Origin: Microbacterium sp. Leaf288 | GTDB taxonomy: Bacteria; Actinomycetota; Actinomycetes; Actinomycetales; Microbacteriaceae | DNA length: 64,000 bases | Direction of reading: 5' to 3' | Assembly: GCF_001422925.1 (NCBI RefSeq) | Contig: NZ_LMNI01000010.1 | Span: 664,778-728,777 of the forward strand | In this document: positions 337 through 49,547 of the stretch, one piece after another | Layout: each line of letters opens with the position of its first letter | How positions within the stretch are numbered: position 1 is the first letter of the stretch | Made by a program: the position numbers and the translations under genes | The notes under the pieces: generated by a model | Databases searched by the model: none | What the model saw: only the letters and a program-made list of their open reading frames with translations | Told to the model about the DNA's origin: nothing

Positions 337-1856
337 CAGCGGGCACCTCCGTTCGCGCCGAGCGCCGGCGCCCTGTCGAGGAGCGGACCGCCCCAAGAGT
401 CGACGAGCAGGGACTCCAGCGCCGCACCGACGCGGTACAGGCGAGCGTCCTCGTGTGCCGGGGCGAGGAACTGGATGCCGACCGGCAGGCCATCCTCGGA
501 CGCCAGGCCGGACGGGATCGAGATTCCGGGCACGCCCGCGAGGTTCGCCGGGATGGTCGTCACGTCGTTGAGGTACATCTGCAGTGGGTCGTCGATCTTC
601 TCGCCGAGCTTGAACGCCGTGGTGGGGGCCGACGGTGTCGCGATGACATCCACCTTCGAGAACGCGTCCGCGAAGTCCTGCTGGATGAGCGTGCGCACCT
701 TCTGGGCCGAACCGTAGTAGGCGTCGTAGTAGCCCGCCGAGAGGGCGTAGGTGCCGAGGATGATGCGGCGCTTCACCTCCTCGCCGAAGCCGGCGTCGCG
801 GGTCTTGGCCATGACGTCCTCCACGGTGCCGCCGGGAACGTCGACGCGCAGTCCGAAGCGGACCGAGTCGAACTTCGCCAGATTGCTGGATGCCTCGGCC
901 GGGAGGATCAGGTAGTACGCGGCGACGCCGTACTCGAAGTGCGGCGCACTGATCTCGACGATCTCGGCGCCCTGGGACTCCATTGCGGCGAGAGCCGCGC
1001 GGAACGACTCCGACACGCCGGCCTGGAAGCCGCTGTCGGGAAGCTCCCGGATCACGCCGACCTTGAGGCCCTTGAGCACCTCGCCGGTCGCGCCCTCGCG
1101 GGCCGCGGCCGCGAACGACGGCCAGTCGTGGGCCAGCGACGTGGAGTCGTGCGGGTCGTGCCCGCCGATCACGTCGTGGAGGAGGCCGGCGTCGAGCACC
1201 GTGCGCGTGACGGGACCGACCTGATCGAGACTCGAAGCCAGCGCGATCGCGCCGTAGCGGCTGACGCCGCCGTAGGTCGGCTTGATGCCCACGGTGCCGG
1301 TGACGTGCGCCGGCTGGCGGATGGATCCGCCGGTGTCGGAGCCGAGGGCGAGCGGGGCTTCGAAAGCCGCGACCGCGGCGGCCGAGCCACCGCCCGATCC
1401 GCCGGGGATGCGCGAGAGGTCCCAGGGGTTGCGCGTCGGACCGTACGCCGAGTGCTCGGTCGACGAGCCCATCGCGAACTCGTCCATGTTCGTCTTGCCG
1501 AGCGGGACGAGACCGGCGGCGCGCGAACGCGCGACGACGGTCGCGTCGTACGGCGACATGTAGCCCTCGAGGATCTTCGAACCGCTGGTCGACGGCATGT
1601 CGGTCGTGACCAGCACGTCCTTGATCGCGAGGGGAACGCCCGCGAGCGGGCCGAGGTCGTCGCCTGCTGCGCGCCGGCGGTCGATGTCGGCAGCCACATC
1701 CAGCGCGTGCTCGCTGACGTGGAGGAAGGCGTGCACATCGGCATCGACGGCGGCGATGCGGTCGAGGTGGGCCTGCGTGGCCTCGACGCTCGACACCTCG
1801 CCGGCGGAGAGCTTGTCTGCGAGCGCGGCGGCGCTCAGCTTCGTGAGATCGGTCAC
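336..1856 (-). CDS. gatA: Asp/Glu-tRNA amidotransferase subunit A
   Basis: GatA is the amidase subunit of GatCAB: it releases ammonia from glutamine (or asparagine) and feeds it to GatB. At 506 residues it has the normal family length. The amidase-signature Ser-cisSer-Lys triad is visible: Lys in AIKDVLVT, and the serines in the glycine/serine-rich stretch [16 protein letters not shown] and in [12 protein letters not shown]. The start is GTG, ten bases after gatC. It is the middle gene of gatCAB and overlaps gatB by one base. Presence of the operon implies that glutaminyl- and/or asparaginyl-tRNA is made indirectly in this organism. Confidence 0.97.
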
Positions 1857-37625: not shown

Positions 37626-37763
37626 GAATCTTCTCCTCGAATCGGGTCGCTACACCCTATCCGAGCAGGGTCGACGAACCGCGGGCGGTCCTTCGGGTCG
37701 CGGCATCCATTCCGCTCTTCTCACTTCTGCGCGCCGGCCGGTGTGATCGAAACGTTCGCTCGG

Positions 37764-37917
37764 GGTAACCGCCCGTGGTCCGGCGGTGAAACACCGCACT
37801 CGTAGCGTCAGCGTCACCGAGACGTCTGCCCCCCGAGGAGGAGCCATGGCCCACCGCGACCGTGTCAACAGCCGGAAACATGACGCTGACGCTGCTGCAA
37901 CATCACCGGCGTACGGT
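37764..37917 (+). promoter_or_regulatory. Tandem nirB promoters with two nitrogen-type operators
   Basis: P1: GGTAACCGC (37764-37772), 15 bases, GAAACACCGC (37788-37797), 5 bases, TAGCGT (-10, 37803-37808). The same spaced arrangement precedes narK. P2: a box of four five-base sites spaced by exactly six bases, GTCAA/GAAAC/CTGAC/GCAAC (37864-37901), matches the GlnR pattern GTnAC-n6-GAAAC-n6-GTnAC-n6-GAAAC with one mismatch in each of three sites. It is followed by TACGGT (37912-37917), six bases before the ATG at 37924. P1 transcripts also contain GAGGAGGAG before an in-frame ATG at 37846. Confidence 0.6.
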
Positions 37918-37923
37918 GACGAC

Positions 37924-40503
37924 ATGAGCGAGACCCCTGCCCTCGGCACCCACGTGGTGATCGTCGGCGCGGGCATGGTCGCGCACCGCTTCGTCGAGAG
38001 CCTGCTCAGCCGGGCCGGCGAGGAGTGGCGCATCACGCTCATCGGCGAAGAGGAGCGTCACCCCTACGACCGGGTCGGCCTCACCGGTTTCTTCGCCGGT
38101 GCCTCGGCCGAAGACCTCGAGCTCGAGCGCGCGGTGCTCGACGACGAGCGCGTGCGGTTCCTCCGCGGCGAGGCCGTCACCCGCATCGACCGCGCTGCGC
38201 GCCGTGTGACGACCCGCAGCGGCACGAGCCTCGCCTACGACCGGCTGATCCTCGCGACAGGGTCGTACGCCGCGCGCCTCGCGGTCGACGGCTTCGGTCT
38301 CGAAGGCTGCTTCGTCTACCGCACGCTCGACGACGTCGAGAAGCTCGAGGAGTTCGTCCAGCGCCGCTCGGCGGAGCTCGGAAGGCCCCTGGTCGGCACG
38401 GTGATCGGCGGCGGACTCCTCGGCCTCGAGGCCGCAGGCGCCCTGCAGGGACTCGACGTCGCCTGCACGGTGGTCCAGTCCTCCGACCGGCTCATGTCGG
38501 CGCAGCTCGACCTTCCCGCGGGCAACGCCCTGCGGCGCCTCATCGAGTCGCGCGGGATCGCCGTGAAGACCGAAGCCGTCACCACCCGTCTCGACCCTGA
38601 TCGGTCGGGGCAGGTGACGGGCCTCGAGTTCCGCGACGGCACGTACGCGCGCACCGACGTCGTGGTCTTCACCGTCGGCGTGCGCCCGCGCGACGAGCTG
38701 GCGCGGGGCGCCGGCCTCGACGTGCACCCCCGCGGCGGCGTGCTGATCGACGCCGGCTGCCAGACCTCCGACCCCCGCGTGCTGGCGATCGGCGAGGTCG
38801 CCAACTACGACGGCATGTGCGTGGGGCTGGTCGCACCCGGGTATGCGATGGCAGAGGTCGCCGCCACCCGACTGCTCGGGGGCGAGGCATCGTTCCCCGG
38901 GTACGACCTGTCGACCAAGCTCAAGCTGTCGGGCGTCGACGTCGCCAGCTTCGGCGATGCATTCGCCGAGACGCCCGGCGCACTCGACGTCACATACGCC
39001 GACCCGGTGGCCGGCGTCTACAAGAAGCTCGTCCTGTCGGACGACGCGAAGACGCTGCTCGGCGGCATCCTCGTCGGCGATGCGTCGGCCTACGGCTCGC
39101 TGCGTCCGCTCGTCGGCGGCGCGCTCGGCGGCGACCCCGCCGCCTACCTCATGCCCGAGGGCGGCGTCGCCGCGCCGACCGGCGACCTCCCCGACGAGGC
39201 GCTCGTCTGCTCGTGCAACAGCGTCACGGCGGGCGCGATCCGTCACGCGGTGCATGAGGAAGGCTGCACGGATGTCGCGGCCATCAAGTCCTGCACCAAG
39301 GCCGGGGCGGCATGCGGCTCGTGCGTGATGATGGTCAAGAAGATCGTCGGCACCGAGCTCGCCAAGTCCGGCGCTGCGCTCAGCAACGCGATCTGCGAGC
39401 ACTTCGACATGTCGCGTCGGCAGCTCTTCGACGCGGTGCGCGTGTCAGGGCTCACGACCTTCAGCGCCGTCATCGAGCGCTTCGGATCCGGCCGCGGCTG
39501 CGACATCTGCAAGCCCGCTCTCGCCAGCATCCTGTCGACGCTCGTTCGCGGGCACGTGCTGGAGGGCGAGAACGCCACCCTGCAGGACACCAACGACCAC
39601 GTTATGGCGAACCTGCAGAAGGACGGCAGCTACTCGGTGGTCCCCCGCATCCCCGGTGGCGAGATCACTCCGGAGGGACTCCTGGTCATCGGCCAGGTCG
39701 CGAAGGACTTCGGCCTCTACACGAAGATCACGGGCGGACAGCGGATCGACATGTTCGGCGCCCGCCTCGAGCAGCTCCCCGAGATCTGGAAGCAGCTGGT
39801 GGATGCCGGCTTCGAATCCGGCCACGCGTACGGCAAGTCGCTGCGCACCGTGAAGTCGTGCGTCGGCTCGACGTGGTGCCGGTACGGCGTCCAGGACTCG
39901 GTCGGCATGGCGGTGCAGCTCGAGCTGCGCTACCGCGGTCTGCGCTCCCCGCACAAGATCAAGCTCGGCGTCTCCGGCTGCGCGCGCGAGTGCGCGGAAG
40001 CGCGCGGCAAGGACGTCGGCGTGATCGCCACCGAAGCGGGCTGGAACATGTACGTCGGCGGCAACGGCGGCTTCACGCCGCGCCACGCCGTGCTGCTCGC
40101 GGAGGGGCTCAACGACGACGAGCTCCTCACGGCGATCGACCGGTTCCTGATGTACTACATCTTCACCGCCGACCGCCTGCAGCGGACCGCACCGTGGTTC
40201 GAGGACCTGGACGGCGGGATCGAGGGCCTCCGCGAAGTCATCTTCGACGACAGCCTCGGCATCTGCGCCGACCTCGACGCCGCGATGGCGGCCCACCTCG
40301 ACTCGTACGAGGACGAGTGGAAGGCGACCCTCGAGGACCCCGAGAAGCTCCGCCGGTTCGCGTCGTTCGTCAACGCCCCGACGACGCCAGACCCCTCGCT
40401 GGCCTACACCGCCGAGCGTGGACAGCCCCGACCCGCCACCGAGGAGGAGCGCGCCGACTCGCGCGTGCTCATCGCCGGAACGACCCTGGAGGTGCGCCGA
40501 TGA
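37924..40503 (+). CDS. nirB: Assimilatory nitrite reductase (NADH/NADPH), large subunit
   Basis: NirB reduces nitrite to ammonium in the cytoplasm. The 859-residue protein has an N-terminal FAD/NAD-binding half (HVVIVGAGMVAHRF), a BFD-like [2Fe-2S] region at about 425-475 (LVCSCNSVTAGAIRHAV ... CGSC), a second Cys pair in RGCDICKPAL, and the siroheme/4Fe-4S module with CVGSTWC (near 646) and CARECAEARGKD (near 685). I chose the ATG at 37924, six bases after TACGGT. An in-frame ATG at 37846 with a strong ribosome site would add 26 residues and could serve the upstream promoter. It overlaps nirD by four bases. Confidence 0.95.
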   Translation: MSETPALGTHVVIVGAGMVAHRFVESLLSRAGEEWRITLIGEEERHPYDRVGLTGFFAGASAEDLELERAVLDDERVRFLRGEAVTRIDRAARRVTTRSGTSLAYDRLILATGSYAARLAVDGFGLEGCFVYRTLDDVEKLEEFVQRRSAELGRPLVGTVIGGGLLGLEAAGALQGLDVACTVVQSSDRLMSAQLDLPAGNALRRLIESRGIAVKTEAVTTRLDPDRSGQVTGLEFRDGTYARTDVVVFTVGVRPRDELARGAGLDVHPRGGVLIDAGCQTSDPRVLAIGEVANYDGMCVGLVAPGYAMAEVAATRLLGGEASFPGYDLSTKLKLSGVDVASFGDAFAETPGALDVTYADPVAGVYKKLVLSDDAKTLLGGILVGDASAYGSLRPLVGGALGGDPAAYLMPEGGVAAPTGDLPDEALVCSCNSVTAGAIRHAVHEEGCTDVAAIKSCTKAGAACGSCVMMVKKIVGTELAKSGAALSNAICEHFDMSRRQLFDAVRVSGLTTFSAVIERFGSGRGCDICKPALASILSTLVRGHVLEGENATLQDTNDHVMANLQKDGSYSVVPRIPGGEITPEGLLVIGQVAKDFGLYTKITGGQRIDMFGARLEQLPEIWKQLVDAGFESGHAYGKSLRTVKSCVGSTWCRYGVQDSVGMAVQLELRYRGLRSPHKIKLGVSGCARECAEARGKDVGVIATEAGWNMYVGGNGGFTPRHAVLLAEGLNDDELLTAIDRFLMYYIFTADRLQRTAPWFEDLDGGIEGLREVIFDDSLGICADLDAAMAAHLDSYEDEWKATLEDPEKLRRFASFVNAPTTPDPSLAYTAERGQPRPATEEERADSRVLIAGTTLEVRR

Positions 40504-40898
40504 CCCTCGTCGACCCGCAGACGGCCGAGTACACCGCTCCCGACGGCTGGGTGCGCGTATGCGCACTCGCCGACCTCGAGATCGAGCGTGGCCGCGCCGC
40601 CCTGCTCGGAGGAACGCAGATCGCGCTGTTCCTGCTGCACGGGCCCGACGGCTCGACGGGCCGCGTCCACGCCGTCTCGAACCTCGACCCCTACAGCCAC
40701 GCGCATGTCATCTCGCGCGGCATCGTCGGCACCCGGCAGGACGTCCCCACGGTCGCCTCGCCGATGTACAAGCAGGTCTTCGATCTGCGCACCGGCGTCT
40801 GCCTCGACACGCAGGGCAAGGAGCCCAAGAACCTGCATGTCTGGCCCGTGACCATCGACCACGGGCATGTCCTGGTCCGCTGGGAGGGCGAGCGATGA
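40500..40898 (+). CDS. nirD: Nitrite reductase small subunit
   Basis: NirD is the Rieske-fold partner of NirB. The 132-residue protein has the fold (VCALADLEIERGRAALLGGTQIALFLL, VHAVSNLDPYSHAHVISRGIVG, VASPMYKQVFDLRTG, VWPVTIDHGHVLVRW). It lacks the Cys/His ligands of true Rieske clusters, as NirD proteins do, so it is probably structural. The ATG overlaps the nirB stop codon and its own stop overlaps the cobA start, so nirB-nirD-cobA are translationally coupled. Confidence 0.94.
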   Translation: MTLVDPQTAEYTAPDGWVRVCALADLEIERGRAALLGGTQIALFLLHGPDGSTGRVHAVSNLDPYSHAHVISRGIVGTRQDVPTVASPMYKQVFDLRTGVCLDTQGKEPKNLHVWPVTIDHGHVLVRWEGER

Positions 40899-41668
40899 CC
40901 GGGCGCGCCAAGACCGACGTCGGGCGCGTCGACCTCATCGGCGGCGGCCCCGGGCCGATCGATCTGCTCACCCTGCGCGCGTGGCGCCTGCTGACGCGCG
41001 CGGAGGTCGTGGTGATGGACCGGCTCGGTCCGACCGACATCCGCGACCACGTCGGCCCCGACGTGGAGATCATCGACGTGGGCAAGCTCCCCGGCCACCA
41101 CCCGGTGCCGCAGGACGAGATCAACGAGATCCTCGTCGACCGCGCCCGTGCCGGCAAGCGCGTCGTGCGGCTCAAGGGCGGCGACCCCTTCGTCTTCGGC
41201 CGCGGCGGCGAGGAGGTGGCGGCCTGCCTCGCGGCCGGTATCCCCGTCGACGTCGTGCCCGGCATCTCGAGCGCCGTCGCGGTGCCTCAGGCAGCCGGCA
41301 TCCCGATCACCCATCGCGGTGTCGCGGGAGCGGTGCACATCATGAACGGACCGTCCGAGGTGACCGAGGCCACGCTCGCGGCCCTCCGCGACGACAGCGT
41401 CACGACGGTCATCCTGATGGGCGTCGGCGCACTGCCCCGCATCGTCTCGGACGCCCTCCACGCCGGTGTCCCCGCGGATCGCCCCGTCGCCATCGTCGAG
41501 CGCGGTCACCACCGTGACCAGCGCACGACGCGCAGTACCCTGGGGTCGGTCGTCGTCGATGCCGGCCTCGCCGGCGTGCGCAACCCCGCCGTCATCGTGG
41601 TCGGCGAGGTGGCCCGCGCCGGGCTGCTGCTTCCCGACCCCCAACTGGCAGGTGACATCGTCCTTTGA
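40895..41668 (+). CDS. cobA: Uroporphyrinogen-III C-methyltransferase
   Basis: SUMT methylates uroporphyrinogen III twice using SAM to give precorrin-2, the start of siroheme synthesis. The 257-residue single-domain protein has VDLIGGGPGPIDLLTLRA, VVVMDRLG, RLKGGDPFVFGRGGEE and VVPGISSAVAVPQAAGIPITHRG, all SAM-binding or family motifs. It lacks the CysG dehydrogenase/ferrochelatase domain, so that step must be encoded elsewhere. The four-base overlaps with nirD and the next gene tie cofactor supply to NirB, which needs siroheme. Confidence 0.94.
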   Translation: MTGRAKTDVGRVDLIGGGPGPIDLLTLRAWRLLTRAEVVVMDRLGPTDIRDHVGPDVEIIDVGKLPGHHPVPQDEINEILVDRARAGKRVVRLKGGDPFVFGRGGEEVAACLAAGIPVDVVPGISSAVAVPQAAGIPITHRGVAGAVHIMNGPSEVTEATLAALRDDSVTTVILMGVGALPRIVSDALHAGVPADRPVAIVERGHHRDQRTTRSTLGSVVVDAGLAGVRNPAVIVVGEVARAGLLLPDPQLAGDIVL

Positions 41669-42801
41669 GCTCCACCCCACGCCCCACCCTCTCGGCCGCA
41701 CTCGACGGCTGCACGATCGTCATCGCCGTCGACCGTCGCTCTTCCGAGTTGGCCGCTGCGCTCGAGCGCCATGGCGCCCACGTGCGCCACGCGCCCGCGC
41801 TGACGATCGTCCCCCACATCGATGACGACGCCCTCATCGCCGCGACGCGCGAGCTGATCGCGCAGCAGCCCGACGTGGTCGTCGCGACGACCGGCGTGGG
41901 CTTCCGGGGCTGGATGGAGGCCGCCGACGAAGCCGGACTGCTCGACGACCTCCACGCCGCGCTGTCCCGCGCCCAGATCGTCGCACGCGGCCCGAAAGCG
42001 CGCGGCGCGATCCAGCAGGCGGGGCTCACCGCAGACTGGGTGGCGGAGTCCGAGACCTCTGCCGAGCTGGGCGAATACCTCCTCGCCGAGGGCGTCGCCG
42101 ACCGGCGCGTGGCGGTGCAGCACCACGGCTCGGGCGCCGACGGCCTCGACGAGCTGTTCGAAGGCGCAGGCGCCGACGTGGTGAGCCTCACCGTGTATCG
42201 CTGGGGTCCTCCCCCGGACCCCGCCGCGGTCTCGCGCTCCGTCATCGCCGCCGCACAGGGCGAAGTCGACGCGGTGCTGTTCACGTCCGCCCCCGGCGCC
42301 GCCGAGTGGATCACCGCGGCGCGGAACGAAGGCGTGCTCGACGAGATCGTCGACCGTGAGGCGGAAGGACGCCTGCTCATGGCCGCCGTCGGCCCCATCA
42401 CCGCAGGCCCGCTCCAGGACGCGGGCCTGCAGCCGCTGATCGCCGAGCGGGGTCGCCTCGGCTCACTGGTGCGGGCCGTCGTCACCCACTTCGGCGGGGG
42501 CGGCGCAGCGTCGCTGCCGACCTCTGCGGGGCGGCTCGAACTGCGCAGCACGGGCATCGTGCTGGACGGCCGGCACATCCCGCTGTCGCGCAGCGCCACC
42601 GATATCGTCGCTGCGCTGTTCGATGCCCAGGGCGGTGTCGTGTCGCGGCCTCGGCTGCAGGCGGCGCTGCCGCGGTCCGGCGAGAACACGCACGCCGTCG
42701 AGATGGCCGTCGCGCGACTGCGCGAGTCGCTGGGCGTCCCCGACCTGGTGAAGACCGTGGTGAAGCGCGGCTACCGGCTCAACGTCATCGAACCCGCCTG
42801 A
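41665..42801 (+). CDS. nnaR: HemD-like domain fused to a winged-helix DNA-binding domain (NnaR-type regulator)
   Basis: A 378-residue fusion. Residues about 12-265 match the uroporphyrinogen-III synthase fold (GCTIVIAVDRRSSELAAALERHGAHV ... VDAVLFTSAPGAAEWITAA). Residues about 280-378 form an OmpR/PhoB-type winged helix (ISLS-type entry HIPLSRSATDIVAALFDAQGGVVSRPRLQ, then HAVEMAVARLRESLG and VKTVVKRGYRLNV). Such proteins are known in Streptomyces and mycobacteria as NnaR, a co-regulator of nitrate/nitrite assimilation. The start is TTG, overlapping the cobA stop codon (TTGA). Being last in nirB-nirD-cobA, it probably feeds back on the narK and nirB promoters. Confidence 0.85.
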   Translation: MSSTPRPTLSAALDGCTIVIAVDRRSSELAAALERHGAHVRHAPALTIVPHIDDDALIAATRELIAQQPDVVVATTGVGFRGWMEAADEAGLLDDLHAALSRAQIVARGPKARGAIQQAGLTADWVAESETSAELGEYLLAEGVADRRVAVQHHGSGADGLDELFEGAGADVVSLTVYRWGPPPDPAAVSRSVIAAAQGEVDAVLFTSAPGAAEWITAARNEGVLDEIVDREAEGRLLMAAVGPITAGPLQDAGLQPLIAERGRLGSLVRAVVTHFGGGGAASLPTSAGRLELRSTGIVLDGRHIPLSRSATDIVAALFDAQGGVVSRPRLQAALPRSGENTHAVEMAVARLRESLGVPDLVKTVVKRGYRLNVIEPA

Positions 42802-43549: not shown

Positions 43550-43616
43550 GAAGCCCCGCGTGTTTCCGACGTGTGACGGGGTGCCCACCTCGGGCGGCGG
43601 CATCCGTGATCGAGAA

Positions 43617-43671
43617 GTGACGGAGAGGTAACCGCGCGAGCAGTCGGGCGGAAACACCGCCTTCCTAGCGT
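43617..43671 (+). promoter_or_regulatory. narK promoter and nitrogen-type operator
   Basis: GTGAC (43617-43621), six bases, GTAAC (43628-43632) forms a GlnR-like pair. GGTAACCGC (43627-43635), 15 bases, GAAACACCGC (43651-43660), 5 bases, TAGCGT (-10, 43666-43671) repeats, with the same spacing throughout, the arrangement upstream of nirB. The predicted start is near 43678, giving a 40-base leader with AGGGAGG before the narK ATG. GlnR and/or NnaR are the likely activators. Confidence 0.6.
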
Positions 43672-43717: not shown

Positions 43718-45151
43718 ATGACCACGACCGACACCCCGTCGATGACGGATACCGCTGCTCCATCCCGCACCATCGCACCGGCCGACGCGCCGGTCACCCT
43801 CACGCATCGCCCCGGCCGCTGGATCGACGGCTGGAACGCCGAGAACCCGGCGTTCTGGGCGGAGTCCGGCCGCGCCATCGCCAGACGCAACCTCGGCTGG
43901 TCGATCTTCGCCGAGTTCCTCGGGTTCATCATCTGGCAGCTGTGGAGCATCGTCGTCGTGATGCTGCCCGCCGCCGGCTTCCAGCTCACCAGCTCCGAGT
44001 CGTTCTGGCTCATCTCGCTGCCCAGCCTCGTCGGCGCGACCCTGCGCTTCCCGTACACGTTCATGGTCGCGATCTTCGGTGGTCGCAACTGGACGATCGT
44101 GTCGGCGGCGCTGCTGCTGATCCCCGCGACACTGCTCGGCATCGTCGTGTCGAACCCCGAGACCCCATTCGGCGTGCTGCTGCTCGTCGCGGCGCTCGGC
44201 GGCGTCGGCGGCGGCAACTTCGCGAGCTCGATGGCGAACATCACCTACTTCTTCCCGCAGAAGGAGAAGGGCTGGGCCCTCGGTCTGAACGCCGCCGGCG
44301 GCAACCTCGGCACCTCGGTCGCCCAGTTCGCCGTGCCGATCGCGGTGACCATCGGCGCCGGCGCGACCCTCAACATCTCGCTCGCCGGCTGGATGTGGAT
44401 CCCGCTCATCCTGCTCGCGATCTTCGGCGCCTGGCGCTACATGGACAACCTATCGTCGGCGAAGGCGGACTTCGGCAGCTCCGCCGCGGCACTGCGCGAA
44501 CCGCACCTGTGGGTCATGGCGCTGCTCTACATCGGCACCTTCGGCTCGTTCATCGGGTTCGCGAGCGTCTTCCCGAAGCTCATCGCCGACCAGTTCCCCG
44601 AGTTCTCCACGCTCCAGGTCGGCCAGGCGGCGGTCTCGGTCGCGTTCCTCGGCGCGCTCGTCGGCTCGCTCGCGCGCCCCTACGGCGGCCGTCTCGCCGA
44701 CCGCTTCGGCGGCGCACGCGTGACGGTGTGCGCCTTCTCGGTGATGGCGCTCGGCGCGCTCGCTCTGGTCTGGACGCTGCCGATGCACAACTTCGTCGTC
44801 TTCCTCGCGTGCTTCCTCGTGCTGTTCGCGGCCACCGGCATGGGCAACGGGTCGACCTACCGCATGATCCCGAGCATCTTCGCCGCGCGCTCGCAGGCGC
44901 GGGGCTACGAGCCCGGCACGCCGGAGGCCACGAAGATGATCCGCAAGGCGGCTGCGGCGCTCGGCCTCATCTCGGCGATCGGCGCGTACGGCGGGTTCCT
45001 CGTGCCCCAGGTGCTCAACGCCTCCCAGCTCGCCACCGGCGGCTACCAGGCCGCGTTCTACGGCTTCGTCGCCGCGTACGTGGGGCTCCTGCTGCTCACG
45101 GTGTTCGTGTACGTGATCCCCCGGGCGTCGCTGGCGAAGCAGCGCATCTGA
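43718..45151 (+). CDS. narK: Nitrate/nitrite transporter (NarK/NasA family, MFS)
   Basis: A 477-residue MFS protein of the nitrate/nitrite porter family with about 12 TM segments. The substrate signature is seen in FPYTFMVAIFGGRNWTIV and in the glycine-rich segments GGVGGGNFASSMANITYFFPQKEKG and FAATGMGNGSTYRMIPSIF. About 45 residues precede TM1. The ATG at 43718 has AGGGAGG upstream; an earlier in-frame ATG at 43670 would lie within the promoter. It imports nitrate for the fused reductase encoded convergently downstream. Confidence 0.94.
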   Translation: MTTTDTPSMTDTAAPSRTIAPADAPVTLTHRPGRWIDGWNAENPAFWAESGRAIARRNLGWSIFAEFLGFIIWQLWSIVVVMLPAAGFQLTSSESFWLISLPSLVGATLRFPYTFMVAIFGGRNWTIVSAALLLIPATLLGIVVSNPETPFGVLLLVAALGGVGGGNFASSMANITYFFPQKEKGWALGLNAAGGNLGTSVAQFAVPIAVTIGAGATLNISLAGWMWIPLILLAIFGAWRYMDNLSSAKADFGSSAAALREPHLWVMALLYIGTFGSFIGFASVFPKLIADQFPEFSTLQVGQAAVSVAFLGALVGSLARPYGGRLADRFGGARVTVCAFSVMALGALALVWTLPMHNFVVFLACFLVLFAATGMGNGSTYRMIPSIFAARSQARGYEPGTPEATKMIRKAAAALGLISAIGAYGGFLVPQVLNASQLATGGYQAAFYGFVAAYVGLLLLTVFVYVIPRASLAKQRI

Positions 45152-45393: not shown

Positions 45394-48300
45394 TCAGTAG
45401 ACGTCGCGGACGTAGCGCTCATCGGCGGCGAGGCCGCGGACGTACTCGGCGGCGGCCTCCTCCGAGAGCTTGCCGTGCTGCTGGGCGATGGCGACCAGCG
45501 TGGCGTCGACGTCCTTGGCCATGCGCATCGCGTCACCGCACACGTACACGTGTGCGCCGTCGTCCTGGAGCCAGCGCCACAGGTGGGCGCCGTGCTCGAT
45601 CATGCGGTCCTGCACGTAGATCTTCTGCCGCTGGTCGCGCGAGAAGGCGACGTCGAGGCGCGTGAGGAACCCGTCCTCGCGCATCTCATCGAGCTCGTCG
45701 CGGTAGTAGAAGTCGCTGGCGGCGTGCTGCTCGCCGAAGAACAGCCAGTTGCGGCCGGTGTGCCCGTCGGCGCGGCGGTCGTGGAGGAACGCGCGGAACG
45801 GCGCGATCCCGGTGCCTGGGCCGATCATGATCATCGGGGTGTCACCGGCCGCCGGCGGGCGGAAGGCGGGCGAGCGCTGCAGATACACGGGCGCGGCGAG
45901 GGCGTCGCCGTCCGCGAGGAACGTCGAGCACACGCCGCCGCGGGCGCGTCCGGAGTCGGTCTCGAAGCGGACCACCGAGACGGTCAGCTCCACGGTGTCT
46001 GGGTCCGCCTTCGGGCTCGACGAGATGGAGTACTGGCGGGGCTGCAGTCGCTTGAGCACGCCGGCCCAGTCGGCGGCGGTGGCCTGCACCGGGAAGTCGC
46101 GCACGAGGTCGACCGCCTGCTGGCTCCACAGGAACTGCTCGAGGCGTCCCTTGTTCTCACGCCGCAGCAGACCGGCGAGCATGCTGTCGCCGCTGCGCTC
46201 CGCGATGAAACGCACCAGGTCGACGGGCGTCTTCGTGATGTCGAGCCGCGTGCGCAGGGCGTCGGCGAAGGTGCGCTCCTCGCCGTCGATCTCCACGATC
46301 TCGAGCGGTGCGATGCCGGTCGCGTCGAGCCATTCTGCGACGACCGCCGGGGCGTTCGCGCACACGACGCCGAGCGAGTCACCGGCCTCGTAGGTCGCGC
46401 CCGAGTCCGAGAGGTCGAACGCGATGCGCCGAACCTCCTTCTGCGAACCCGGCCCGCTCAGCAGGTCGTTGCGCACGAGCGGTGCCTGCACCGGGTTGGA
46501 CCGGCTGAACAGGCGCTTCGCCGGCGGAGCCTGGAGGGCGACGGATGCTGCACCCGTCGTCCCTTCCGCTGCCAGGGTGTCGAGGATCTGGGCCAGCCAC
46601 GCCTCGCGCGGTTCGTCGGCGTCGGGCTCGAGATCGACCCGCTCCAGGAGCGCGGTCGCGCCGAGCTCGCCCAGGCGGCTGTCGAGCCGCCGACCGTGGC
46701 CGCAGAAGTCGTCGTAGTTAGAGTCGCCGAGCGCGAGCACCGCGTAGCGGAGCCCCGACAGTTCGGGCGCGCCGTCGGCGTTGAGCTCGTGCCAGAGCGC
46801 GGCGGCGTTGTCGGGGGGACCGCCGTCGCCGAACGTGGAGGTGACCACGAGCAGACGCTTCACCGCGGTCAGGTCCGTCGCGCGCAGCTCCGCCATGCTC
46901 CGTGCACGCGCGGGGATGCCGCGCGCGCCGAGCGCAGCGGTCGCCGCCGTCGCGAACTCCTCGGCGTTCCCGGTCTGCGAGCCCCAGAGCACCACGACCT
47001 CGTCGATGCCCTCGGCCCCCGGCATCCCCGTGCCGACCGACGTGCGGGAGAACGCCCCCGCGAGCACGCCGTCGAACCAGGCCCGCACGAGCGCACCGAG
47101 CGGGGCTTCGACGGGCAGCACCGGCACCTCGCCCGGAGCGAGCACCACCGACCGCACTGTGGAGAGGAAGCCTGCGAGGTACGCGCCCTCCAGATCGCTC
47201 AGCTGCGGCGGGGCCAGCGCCACGCCGGCGCTCGCGAGCGCCTCGTCGGCGGACGCGGTCGACGATCCTGCTCCCCCGACCGCCGGGCCGACGCGGCGAA
47301 GGGTCACAGCGGCGAACTTGAACTCCGGCTGCGCCGACAGCGGGTCCACCGCGTCGCTCGTCACGGCGTTGACGGTGACGTACTCTCCGTGCTCGTCGTT
47401 CCAGTGGAACGGCGCGAACAGTCCGCCCGGCTGGACACGATCGGTGAGCACCGCGGGCACGACGAATCGGCCGCGGCGCGAGGCGACCTCGACCTGATCG
47501 CCCTCGGCGATTCCGAGCCGTTCTGCGTCGACCGGGTGCACCTCGACGAAGGGTCCGGGGTGCAGCTTCGCGAGCTTGGCGACCCGGCCGGTCTTCGTGA
47601 GCGTGTGCCAGTGGTGCGGGAGACGCCCGGTGTTGAGCACCCAGGGGTAGTCGTCGTCGGGAAGCTCCGCCGGTGCCAGATGGGGCCGCGCGAGGAACTG
47701 CGCGCGCCGCGACGGCGTCGCGAACGCGAGGCGCGGCACCGTGCCGTCGTCTTCGACGTGCAGCGACTGGCTCACCCCGTCGTTCAGGTACCGGATCGGA
47801 TGCCGCGTCGCGCTGTCGTCCGGCGGTGCGGGCCATTGCACCGGGGTCTCGCGCAGGCGCTCGTAGGTCACGCCGCGCAGATCCCACCCGGTCTGGGGGT
47901 TCCAGAATCGTCGGATCTCGTCGAACACGTCAGCGCTCGAGGTGAAGTCGAATCCCTCGAAGCCCATCGCACGGGCGATCTGGCAGATCGTGAGCCAGTC
48001 CGGCTGCGCCTCGCCCGGCGCGGCGATCACGTCGCGCACGAGCGTCAGGGTCCGGTCGCTGTTCACCGTCACGCCATCGGCTTCGACCCACAGCGTGGCC
48101 GGCAGCAGGATGTCGGCGTAGGCGGTGGTCGCCGTCTCGGTGTAGACGTCCTGCGCGATGACGAGCTCCGCGGTCTCCAGCGCCTCGATCACGGTCTTGC
48201 GATTCGCCACCGACGCGACGGGGTTGCTGCAGATGATCCAGACAGCCTTGATCTCGCCGTCGGCCGCGCGCCGGAACATGTCGATCGTTCCCGAGCCCGA

Positions 48301-49446
48301 CTCCGCGCGGATCGCGCCCGGCTCCAGTCCCCACACGTCCTCGACGAACGCGCGGTCGGGCGCGCTGAACACGGCGCGCTGGCCGGGCAGCCCGGGCCCC
48401 ATGTACCCCATCTCGCGCCCGCCCATCGCGTTGGGCTGGCCGGTCAGCGAGAACGGGCCGCTTCCGGGGCGGCAGATCGCGCCGGTCGCCAGATGGAGGT
48501 TGCAGATGGCGTTCGTCGACCAGGTGCCGTGGGTGGACTGATTGAGTCCCATCGTCCACAGCGTCATCCATTCGCCGGCCTCGCCGATCCAGCGGGCGGC
48601 GGTGCGGATGTCGTCTTCGGCCAGACCGGTCAGCTCCGCGACCCGAGCGGGCGGGTACTCGGCGAGGAGCTCGTCCATGTGCTCCCAGCCCTCGGTGTGG
48701 GCGGCGATGAACTCCTCATCGATGTCGCCCGCGGTCACCAGGAGGTGCAGCAGGCCGTTCAGCAGCGCGAGGTCCGTGCCGGGCCGGATCTGCAGGAACA
48801 GGTCGGCGCGGTCAGCGGTGGTGGTGCGACGCGGGTCGACCACGATCAGCTTCGCACCCTGCTTCAGCCGGTCAGCCATTCGCAGGAACAGGATGGGGTG
48901 GCAGTCGGCCGTGTTCGAGCCGATCACGAAGAAGAGGTCGGCGCGGTCGAAGTCCTCGTACGATCCGGGCGGCCCGTCGGCGCCCAGCGACTGCTTGTAG
49001 CCGGTGCCGGCCGACGCCATGCACAGCCGCGAGTTCGACTCGATGTGGATACCGCGCAGGTACCCTTTGACCAGCTTGTTCGAGAGGTACTGCGCCTCCA
49101 TGCTCATCTGCCCCGAGACGTACAGCGCGATCGCATCGGGACCGTGCTCATCGAGGATCGCGCGAAGGCGGGCCGCAGCATCCGTCACCGCATCGGAGAC
49201 CGGAACGGGCGCCGCGGGCTCACCGCGGGACGGCCGCACGTGCGCCGTGGTCATGCGACCCGGCGCCTGCATGAGCTCGGCGTGGGTCGCACCCTTCGTG
49301 CACAGTCGTCCGGCGTTCGTGGGGTGCGCGCGGTCGCCCGCGACCTTCGCGATGGCGAGCGGATGCCCCGCCCCGCCGTCCGAGGTCGTCACCGAGATAC
49401 CGCAGCCGACGCCGCAGTAGGAGCACACGGTGCGCACTTCGACCAT
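45394..49446 (-). CDS. Assimilatory nitrate reductase fused to a CysJ-like flavin reductase
   Basis: A 1350-residue single-chain enzyme reducing nitrate to nitrite. The N-terminal half is a molybdopterin (bis-MGD) reductase: a 4Fe-4S site CSYCGVGCG with a fourth Cys in GRLCTKG, then [19 protein letters not shown] and the C-terminal molybdopterin domain ([18 protein letters not shown]). From about residue 815 a flavodoxin domain follows ([15 protein letters not shown]), then an FAD/NADPH reductase like sulfite reductase alpha ([12 protein letters not shown] near 1142, [15 protein letters not shown] near 1211, [13 protein letters not shown]) ending in VRDVY. Electrons can thus pass from NAD(P)H to nitrate within one protein. 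It is convergent with narK. Confidence 0.92.
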
Positions 49447-49479
49447 GTCTTCGATGGTCCCGGATGGACATTCCGGGGC

Positions 49480-49507
49480 GTTTCCCGCCGTGTTTCCCGC
49501 AGATCAC
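49480..49507 (-). promoter_or_regulatory. GlnR-like half sites upstream of the nitrate reductase gene
   Basis: On the minus strand GTGAT (49507-49503), six bases, GAAAC (49496-49492), seven bases, GAAAC (49484-49480) lies 34-61 bases before the ATG. The first pair fits the GlnR spacing GTnAC-n6-GAAAC with one mismatch. No clear -10 hexamer is seen between the sites and the gene. Confidence 0.4.
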
Positions 49508-49547
49508 ATCTGCCGCACGCCGAGCGGCCGCGCGCAGTGAAGAGGAG

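Follow-up and report, generated by a model that had tools for sequence, protein, structure and literature searches.

A predicted composite NnaR–GlnR promoter layout upstream of nirB and narK in Microbacterium sp. Leaf288 and its relatives

The nitrate assimilation cluster and its regulators

The window analysed here, a 64-kb stretch of the genome of Microbacterium sp. Leaf288, carries a cluster that runs in the order nirB, nirD, tetrapyrrole methylase, nnaR and narK, with a convergent nasC-type nitrate reductase behind it (Table 1); the last we take to be an enzyme of the nasC/nasN type. Both NnaR and GlnR, the regulators of a composite promoter, are encoded in the genome. GlnR (L003) was recognised by its best matches among solved structures (PDB 8hih, 8.6e-78; 4o1h, named GlnR, 2.4e-26), and no NCBIfam model among the 25 listed reaches its cut-off for this protein. 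Trans_reg_C matches number 16 in the genome, NnaR included, and a further response regulator (L005) presumably corresponds to MtrA.

Table 1. Genes and predicted promoter elements of the locus (positions in the window).
Feature	Position	Strand	Basis or remarks
nirB P1, putative NnaR palindrome CTCAC-N18-GTGAT	37720-37747	+	sequence; own-genome pattern match; layout as in relatives; published motif
nirB P1, putative GlnR box 1	37754-37769	+	a1 GTTCG 37754-37758 (weak), b1 GTAAC 37765-37769; 11-bp steps from NnaR right half
nirB P1, putative GlnR b2 GAAAC	37788-37792	+	N18 past b1
nirB P1, likely -10 TAGCGT	37803-37808	+	15 bp past GAAAC start in 57/97 upstream regions
nirB	37846-40503	+	TIGR02374, 1.8e-294; ATG 37846 after GGAGGAG, or ATG 37924 from P2
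nirB P2, putative GlnR tetrad GTCAA-n6-GAAAC-n6-CTGAC-n6-GCAAC, N10, -10 TACGGT	37864-37917	+	pattern match, 3 mismatches
nirD-like Rieske protein	40500-40871	+	PF13806
tetrapyrrole methylase	40874-41668	+	PF00590
nnaR (HemD domain and OmpR-type DNA-binding domain)	41665-42801	+	PF02602, PF00486; NF005568
narK, weak putative NnaR palindrome CCCAC-N17-GTGAT	43584-43610	+	sequence; GTGAT 22 bp before GTAAC, as in relatives
narK, putative GlnR box 1, a1 GTGAC and b1 GTAAC (n6)	43617-43632	+	sequence, layout in relatives
narK, putative GlnR b2 GAAAC	43651-43655	+	N18 past b1
narK, likely -10 TAGCGT	43666-43671	+	spacing as in relatives
narK, MFS nitrate/nitrite transporter	43718-45151	+	TIGR00886 297 bits and NF011608 351 bits, both under cut-offs; PF07690 over cut-off
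nitrate reductase fused to diflavin reductase	45394-49446	-	molybdopterin, flavodoxin, FAD and NAD domains
nasC, weak candidate composite	49454-49541	-	TTCAC-N18-GTGCG, GTGAT, GAAAC, N17, GGAAT, N10, GACCAT, then ATG 49446

A shared frame at nirB and narK and its upstream extension

A first-pass annotation had reported a 45-base frame with invariant spacing before both nirB and narK, and the two copies are real and far above chance: the window has just two matches to GGTAACCGC-N15-GAAACACCGC, both on the plus strand (37764 and 43627), and 100 shuffles gave none. A genome-wide search with GGTAAC-N18-GAAACA across 4.75 Mb (17 contigs) returned the nirB and narK sites only, with 0 matches for the reversed control. 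A longer pattern, GTGA-N7-GTnnC-N6-GTAAC-N18-GAAAC-N10-TAnnnT with up to three mismatches, was likewise confined to narK (0 mismatches) and nirB (1), its control yielding 0 matches.

The twenty-five bases originally described as fixed are exact in the window, but conservation does not generally extend to the CGC behind GTAAC or to the one behind GAAACAC; the shared blocks that recur in 12 genomes with both promoters are GTGA, GT or TT at a1, TAAC, GAAACAC and TAnCGT. The additional GTGAC-n6-GTAAC pair assigned to narK is present and forms a regular a-n6-b pair, as does GTTCG-n6-GTAAC at nirB, where the a-site is weak. At neither nirB P1 nor narK is the a2 element of a second GlnR box recognisable, and b1 and b2 lie 23 bp apart, not 22. 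TAGCGT is the likely -10 and stands 10 bases past GAAAC, which would place GAAAC at about -27 to -23; the half-site thus adjoins the promoter core, as first supposed, but fills the -35 region instead of abutting a -35.

The conserved unit is longer than the frame and begins about 44 bases farther upstream, with an NnaR palindrome that the first reading had missed. At nirB it reads CTCAC-N18-GTGAT, one base off CTCAC-N18-GTGAG, and a pattern of palindrome plus a1-b1 matches P1 with 1 mismatch in the genome's own sequence, while narK has only a poor palindrome (CCCAC, N17). At both promoters the GlnR box lies 22 bp past the NnaR right half. The frame is therefore taken to be only the GlnR/-10 half of the unit, since relatives show the longer layout with the NnaR palindrome upstream.

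Conservation of the layout in relatives

Of 526 loci confirmed around NnaR relatives, the best 80 were compared, with 10 kb on each side where available; these loci are mutually related as well as selected, so the counts are not independent events. Usable upstream regions numbered 97 (75 nirB and 22 narK, the window included), after removal of 8 partial nirB/narK matches, one region with 3 upstream bases, and L076 and L079, which are without nirB.

The layout that recurs before nirB and narK in Micrococcales consists of CTCAC-N17/18-GTGA, a1 (GTTnC or GTGAC) 11 bp on, b1 (GTAAC, GAAAC or GCAAC) 22 bp past GTGA and, N17 or N18 past b1, b2 GAAAC, followed after N10 by TAnnGT; the idea of one operator/promoter common to two genes of one pathway is thereby borne out. 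With spacing left free across the 97 regions, distances show sharp maxima: between CTC[AT]C and GTG[AC] at 23 (51 regions) and 22 (19), between GTG[AC][GT] and b1 at 22 (64), between b1 and GAAAC at 23 (34) and 22 (19), and between GAAAC and TA..[GT]T at 15 (57). For each of the last three, no distance was shared by more than 3 regions in the reverse-complement control. The palindrome survives that control (35 regions at 23) because it is self-symmetric, and the a1-to-b1 distance is a weaker test, with 35 regions at 11 vs 9 in the control.

All regions were also scored with a leave-one-out matrix, which excluded the scored locus (single loci, not clades) and was trained on sites picked by the GTAAC/GAAAC pattern. 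For the null, the full matrix was applied to 291 regions that had been reversed or complemented, each at most 450 bases long (maximum 16.3, 99% level 3.5). The null maximum was exceeded by 57 of 75 nirB regions (30 N17, 27 N18) and by 19 of 22 narK regions (9 N17, 10 N18). The 99% level was passed by 61 nirB regions, four of which (L055, L057, L058, L062) really present a proximal P2 element and have a composite-like site about 1 kb upstream. A wider scan over 2.5 kb, for which the null of up to 450 bases was retained, located a composite-like site in 10 of the 18 nirB regions under the null maximum. Seven of the ten are Microbacterium, with the site about 1.0-1.2 kb upstream, a degenerate b1 and scores from 3.8 to 44.7, three of them below 16.3; the remainder are L091 at -986 (23.1) and, near the start, L085 (16.7) and L089 (47.0). 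No composite site was found within 2.5 kb of nirB in 8 of 75 regions (7 Demequina, 1 Phycicoccus), and narK carries one in 6 of the 8 genomes whose nirB has none.

The upstream composite of L055, and that of L058, lies about 1.1 kb from nirB, before a formate/nitrite transporter gene that precedes it (PF01226 match in L055; by similar sequence in L058). At nirB of L064, L065, L067 and L071 the composite -10 stands 6 nt before the ATG, and P1 may be leaderless there; in the window it appears leadered, with a Shine-Dalgarno sequence.

A class-wide scan with palindrome plus a1-b1, blind to gene and without mismatch, matched 8 of 394 genomes, in 7 of them ahead of nirB and in 1 ahead of a nasC-like gene, and its reversed control matched none of the 394; the pattern is strict, and 386 genomes, the window's own included, have no exact match. 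Among plasmid-collection records, 8 hold an NnaR relative, of which 6 were scanned with the b1-b2 spacing allowed to vary between 5 and 29, a wider range than the 15-20 for which the 16.3 threshold was set. That threshold was exceeded with N16 at Tsukamurella nirB and narK, M. methanotrophicum nirB and one Nocardia farcinica narK, and with N17 at Arthrobacter nirB and Tsukamurella nasC (17.5). Streptantibioticus nirB, narK and nasC stayed at or below it, as did Nocardia nirB and the second narK, and the narK genes, second nirB and nasC of M. methanotrophicum; at the Nonomuraea locus neither nirB nor narK was found.

Assignment of the GTAAC and GAAAC elements

The first-pass annotation had left the GTAAC-n18-GAAAC spacing between a site of the NnaR-type protein itself and a GlnR/NnaR composite, and amtB promoters bear directly on this choice. 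The amtB set comprised 59 entries, from 57 genomes of the NnaR loci, one of them with two, and the window's own; the paralogue L185 and matches without a locus were left out. The own-genome amtB promoter reads GTAAC-n6-GAAAC-N18-GAAAC and has no sequence resembling an NnaR half-site at the customary position, so the N18 frame occurs where that half-site is absent. An amtB frame with a -10-like element was found in 41 of 59 entries (26 N17, 15 N18), 16 being without it and 2 too short, and GTG[AC] stands at the NnaR position in 1 of the 41. The spacing is thus not NnaR-specific, N17 and N18 alternating among promoters and among species. As a mark of lineage alone N18 was discarded as well, since nirB and amtB spacings differ within one genome: nirB N18 accompanies amtB N17 in L060, L066, L077, L083, L096, L104 and L107, and the reverse holds in L063. 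Just upstream of the GlnR sites of the own-genome amtB promoter there is a perfect 16-base palindrome, CTGATGTTTACATCAG (L137, 2858-2873, minus strand).

The 45-base frame is very probably one half of a composite NnaR-GlnR activator promoter, namely the half with the GlnR sites and the core promoter; the composite, the annotation's last option, is the best reading, with the palindrome at its preferred distance from GTAAC in about two thirds of the regions (64 of 97, as above). A different occupant, MtrA, could in principle be what mainly binds the GTAAC/GAAAC sites, or could act as a repressor in competition with GlnR, and the genome has a response regulator, presumably MtrA-like (L005). The accessible parts of a mycobacterial study state that the motifs of MtrA and GlnR hardly differ and that binding of MtrA to the nirB promoter was shown in mycobacteria (PMC6277429). 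The sites occupy an activator position, with an NnaR site next to them, and amtB has this frame in front of it too, which makes either role of MtrA improbable; competition by MtrA is compatible with GlnR binding.

Binding of the GTAAC-N18-GAAAC pair by NnaR itself was suggested by its position before NnaR-type targets and by its difference from the n6 tetrad. It was discarded on the amtB control, and the motif reported for NnaR is another palindrome, which lies upstream of GTAAC; we regard such binding as very unlikely. Finally, the two frames are the only copies in the genome and lie 5.9 kb apart, as a recent promoter duplication without retained regulatory meaning would have it, but blocks are kept while spacers have diverged and the layout persists in distant families, so that this origin hardly deserves consideration. 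Pairwise identity over 21 Microbacterium-like nirB N18 sites is 0.90-1.00 in GTGA, GTTC, b1 and b2 and 0.85 in the -10, vs 0.36 inside the palindrome and 0.41 for the n18 spacer, a contrast partly built in because the blocks belong to the matrix that selected the sites, and less so in the free-spacing counts. The left NnaR half reaches 0.46 at a fixed column owing to the one-base shift between N17 and N18 palindromes.

A probable second nirB promoter

A further element, P2, carries the second a-n6-b pair of a tetrad (GAAAC-n6-CTGAC-n6-GCAAC) and is without an NnaR half-site; the ATG at 37924 comes 6 nt after its -10. In a general genome scan for a-b-a-b with 3 mismatches, P2 is among 6 matches, vs 2 in the reversed control. 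Over P2, third codon positions are 0.82 identical in six close species vs 0.59 in the nirB codons downstream (first and second positions 0.88 and 0.88 vs 0.90 and 0.94). Such over-conservation of third positions argues for constraint at the DNA level and hence points to a second, GlnR-only nirB promoter, whose start is apparently leaderless. P2 (37864-37924) lies inside a possible in-frame N-terminal extension of NirB from ATG 37846, and two NirB N-termini could arise from two promoters.

A model of composite control

What the sequences themselves establish are the sites, their spacings and conservation, and the two regulator genes; the composite NnaR-GlnR arrangement predicted from them would involve the following occupancy, dimer arrangement, activation and start sites. 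An NnaR dimer would occupy CTCAC-N18-GTGA; the a1-b1 box, which follows at steps of 11 bp, would take one GlnR dimer, and b2 GAAAC another, standing in for a -35 element 10 bases upstream of the -10. Such a replacement has a model in class-II activation by the PhoB/OmpR family. Lying 22 bp upstream of b1, NnaR would be on the same helical face. GlnR would signal nitrogen shortage, NnaR, the product of the same cluster, would limit use of the promoter to nitrate/nitrite assimilation, and most likely NnaR stabilises GlnR at these promoters. The two regulators, NnaR for nitrate and GlnR for nitrogen shortage, thus most likely switch nirB and narK on together.

It is tempting to hypothesize, as a serious but tentative possibility, that NnaR and GlnR form one phase-locked array in Actinomycetes, in which NnaR is an extra, specificity-giving subunit and b1-b2 the main flexible joint. 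NnaR would be such a subunit because its right half-site forms, together with a1 and b1, a series of repeats spaced exactly 11 bp apart; within the same tentative proposal b1-b2 would evolve in 1-bp steps while the distance from b2 to the -10 stays fixed. The b1-b2 spacing is N16 at most Mycobacteriales sites read and N17 or N18 in Micrococcales.

Relation to known systems

Composite NnaR/GlnR control of these genes is already known in Streptomyces and mycobacteria. In the accessible parts of the M. smegmatis work, the NnaR motif is CTCAC(a/c)-N16-(t/g)GTGAG, lies near GlnR motifs at similar spacing among targets, and the nirB and narK promoters are bound by both proteins (PMC6277429); the same motif was also used for M. 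abscessus (PMC11162112, likewise seen in excerpt). For S. coelicolor, the available text of PMC10704036, citing Amin et al. 2012, describes NnaR as a co-activator of GlnR, names narK, nirB, nirA and nasA as its targets and reports cooperative binding of NnaR and GlnR at nirB. A gap of 1 bp between two GlnR boxes is given for nasA in PMC10704036.

The arrangement described here resembles that of M. smegmatis nirB and narK, as far as the excerpts of PMC6277429 describe it, in its palindrome beside a GlnR motif, similar spacing, the same genes and leaderless features. Unlike in M. smegmatis, nirB P1 and narK here look leadered, and nirB seems to have a second, GlnR-only promoter. The b1-b2 spacing is N18 here vs N16 at M. 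methanotrophicum nirB and Tsukamurella nirB and narK, the M. smegmatis sequence standing outside the comparison. The inner elements match a GlnR a-b-a-b box (PMC10704036) in the GTnAC-n6-GTAAC box and the GAAAC b-site on the coding strand, but a2 is degenerate and b1-b2 is 23 instead of 22 bp. In the Streptomyces-type system, the Streptantibioticus nasC region keeps the order, with N17, but scores only 2.4. Open-licence literature yielded no work on NnaR in Micrococcales and none joining uroporphyrinogen-III synthase, nitrate assimilation and Microbacterium, and the listings available point to none on Microbacterium, GlnR and nitrate.

What is added is the exact phase-locked geometry read from these promoters and its presence in Microbacterium sp. 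Leaf288. The site is a real, conserved and functional-looking composite promoter of known kind, and its precise geometry is a useful addition: a base-level layout for one promoter that would serve a pathway regulator and the global nitrogen regulator. The layout spans Microbacterium, other families of the class and Mycobacteriales, and it makes targets predictable from sequence, such as nasC in the window and a nitrite-transporter operon in some relatives.

Further candidate sites

The nasC composite of the window scores 8.1, above the 99% null level and below the null maximum. It may be seen as a weaker third copy, in which order and phase are kept, with N17 between b1 and b2. The nasC regions of L049-L053 show the same arrangement with scores of 5.6 to 14.7, all under the null maximum; it occurs in 6 of 25 nasC regions, and the remaining 19 score below zero. 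From reading the sequences, nasC in these 19 mostly follows close behind another gene.

Scanning the own genome for palindrome plus a1-b1 with 2 mismatches gave 5 matches, nirB and four others, and 0 in the reversed control; the four may include real sites. Two, L152 and L155 (match at 1501-1550, minus strand), show an NnaR-like palindrome followed by in-phase a1/b1-like elements and could be extra NnaR/GlnR sites or chance. The genes behind them are presumably transketolase-like (L152) and glucose-6-phosphate-isomerase-like (L155).
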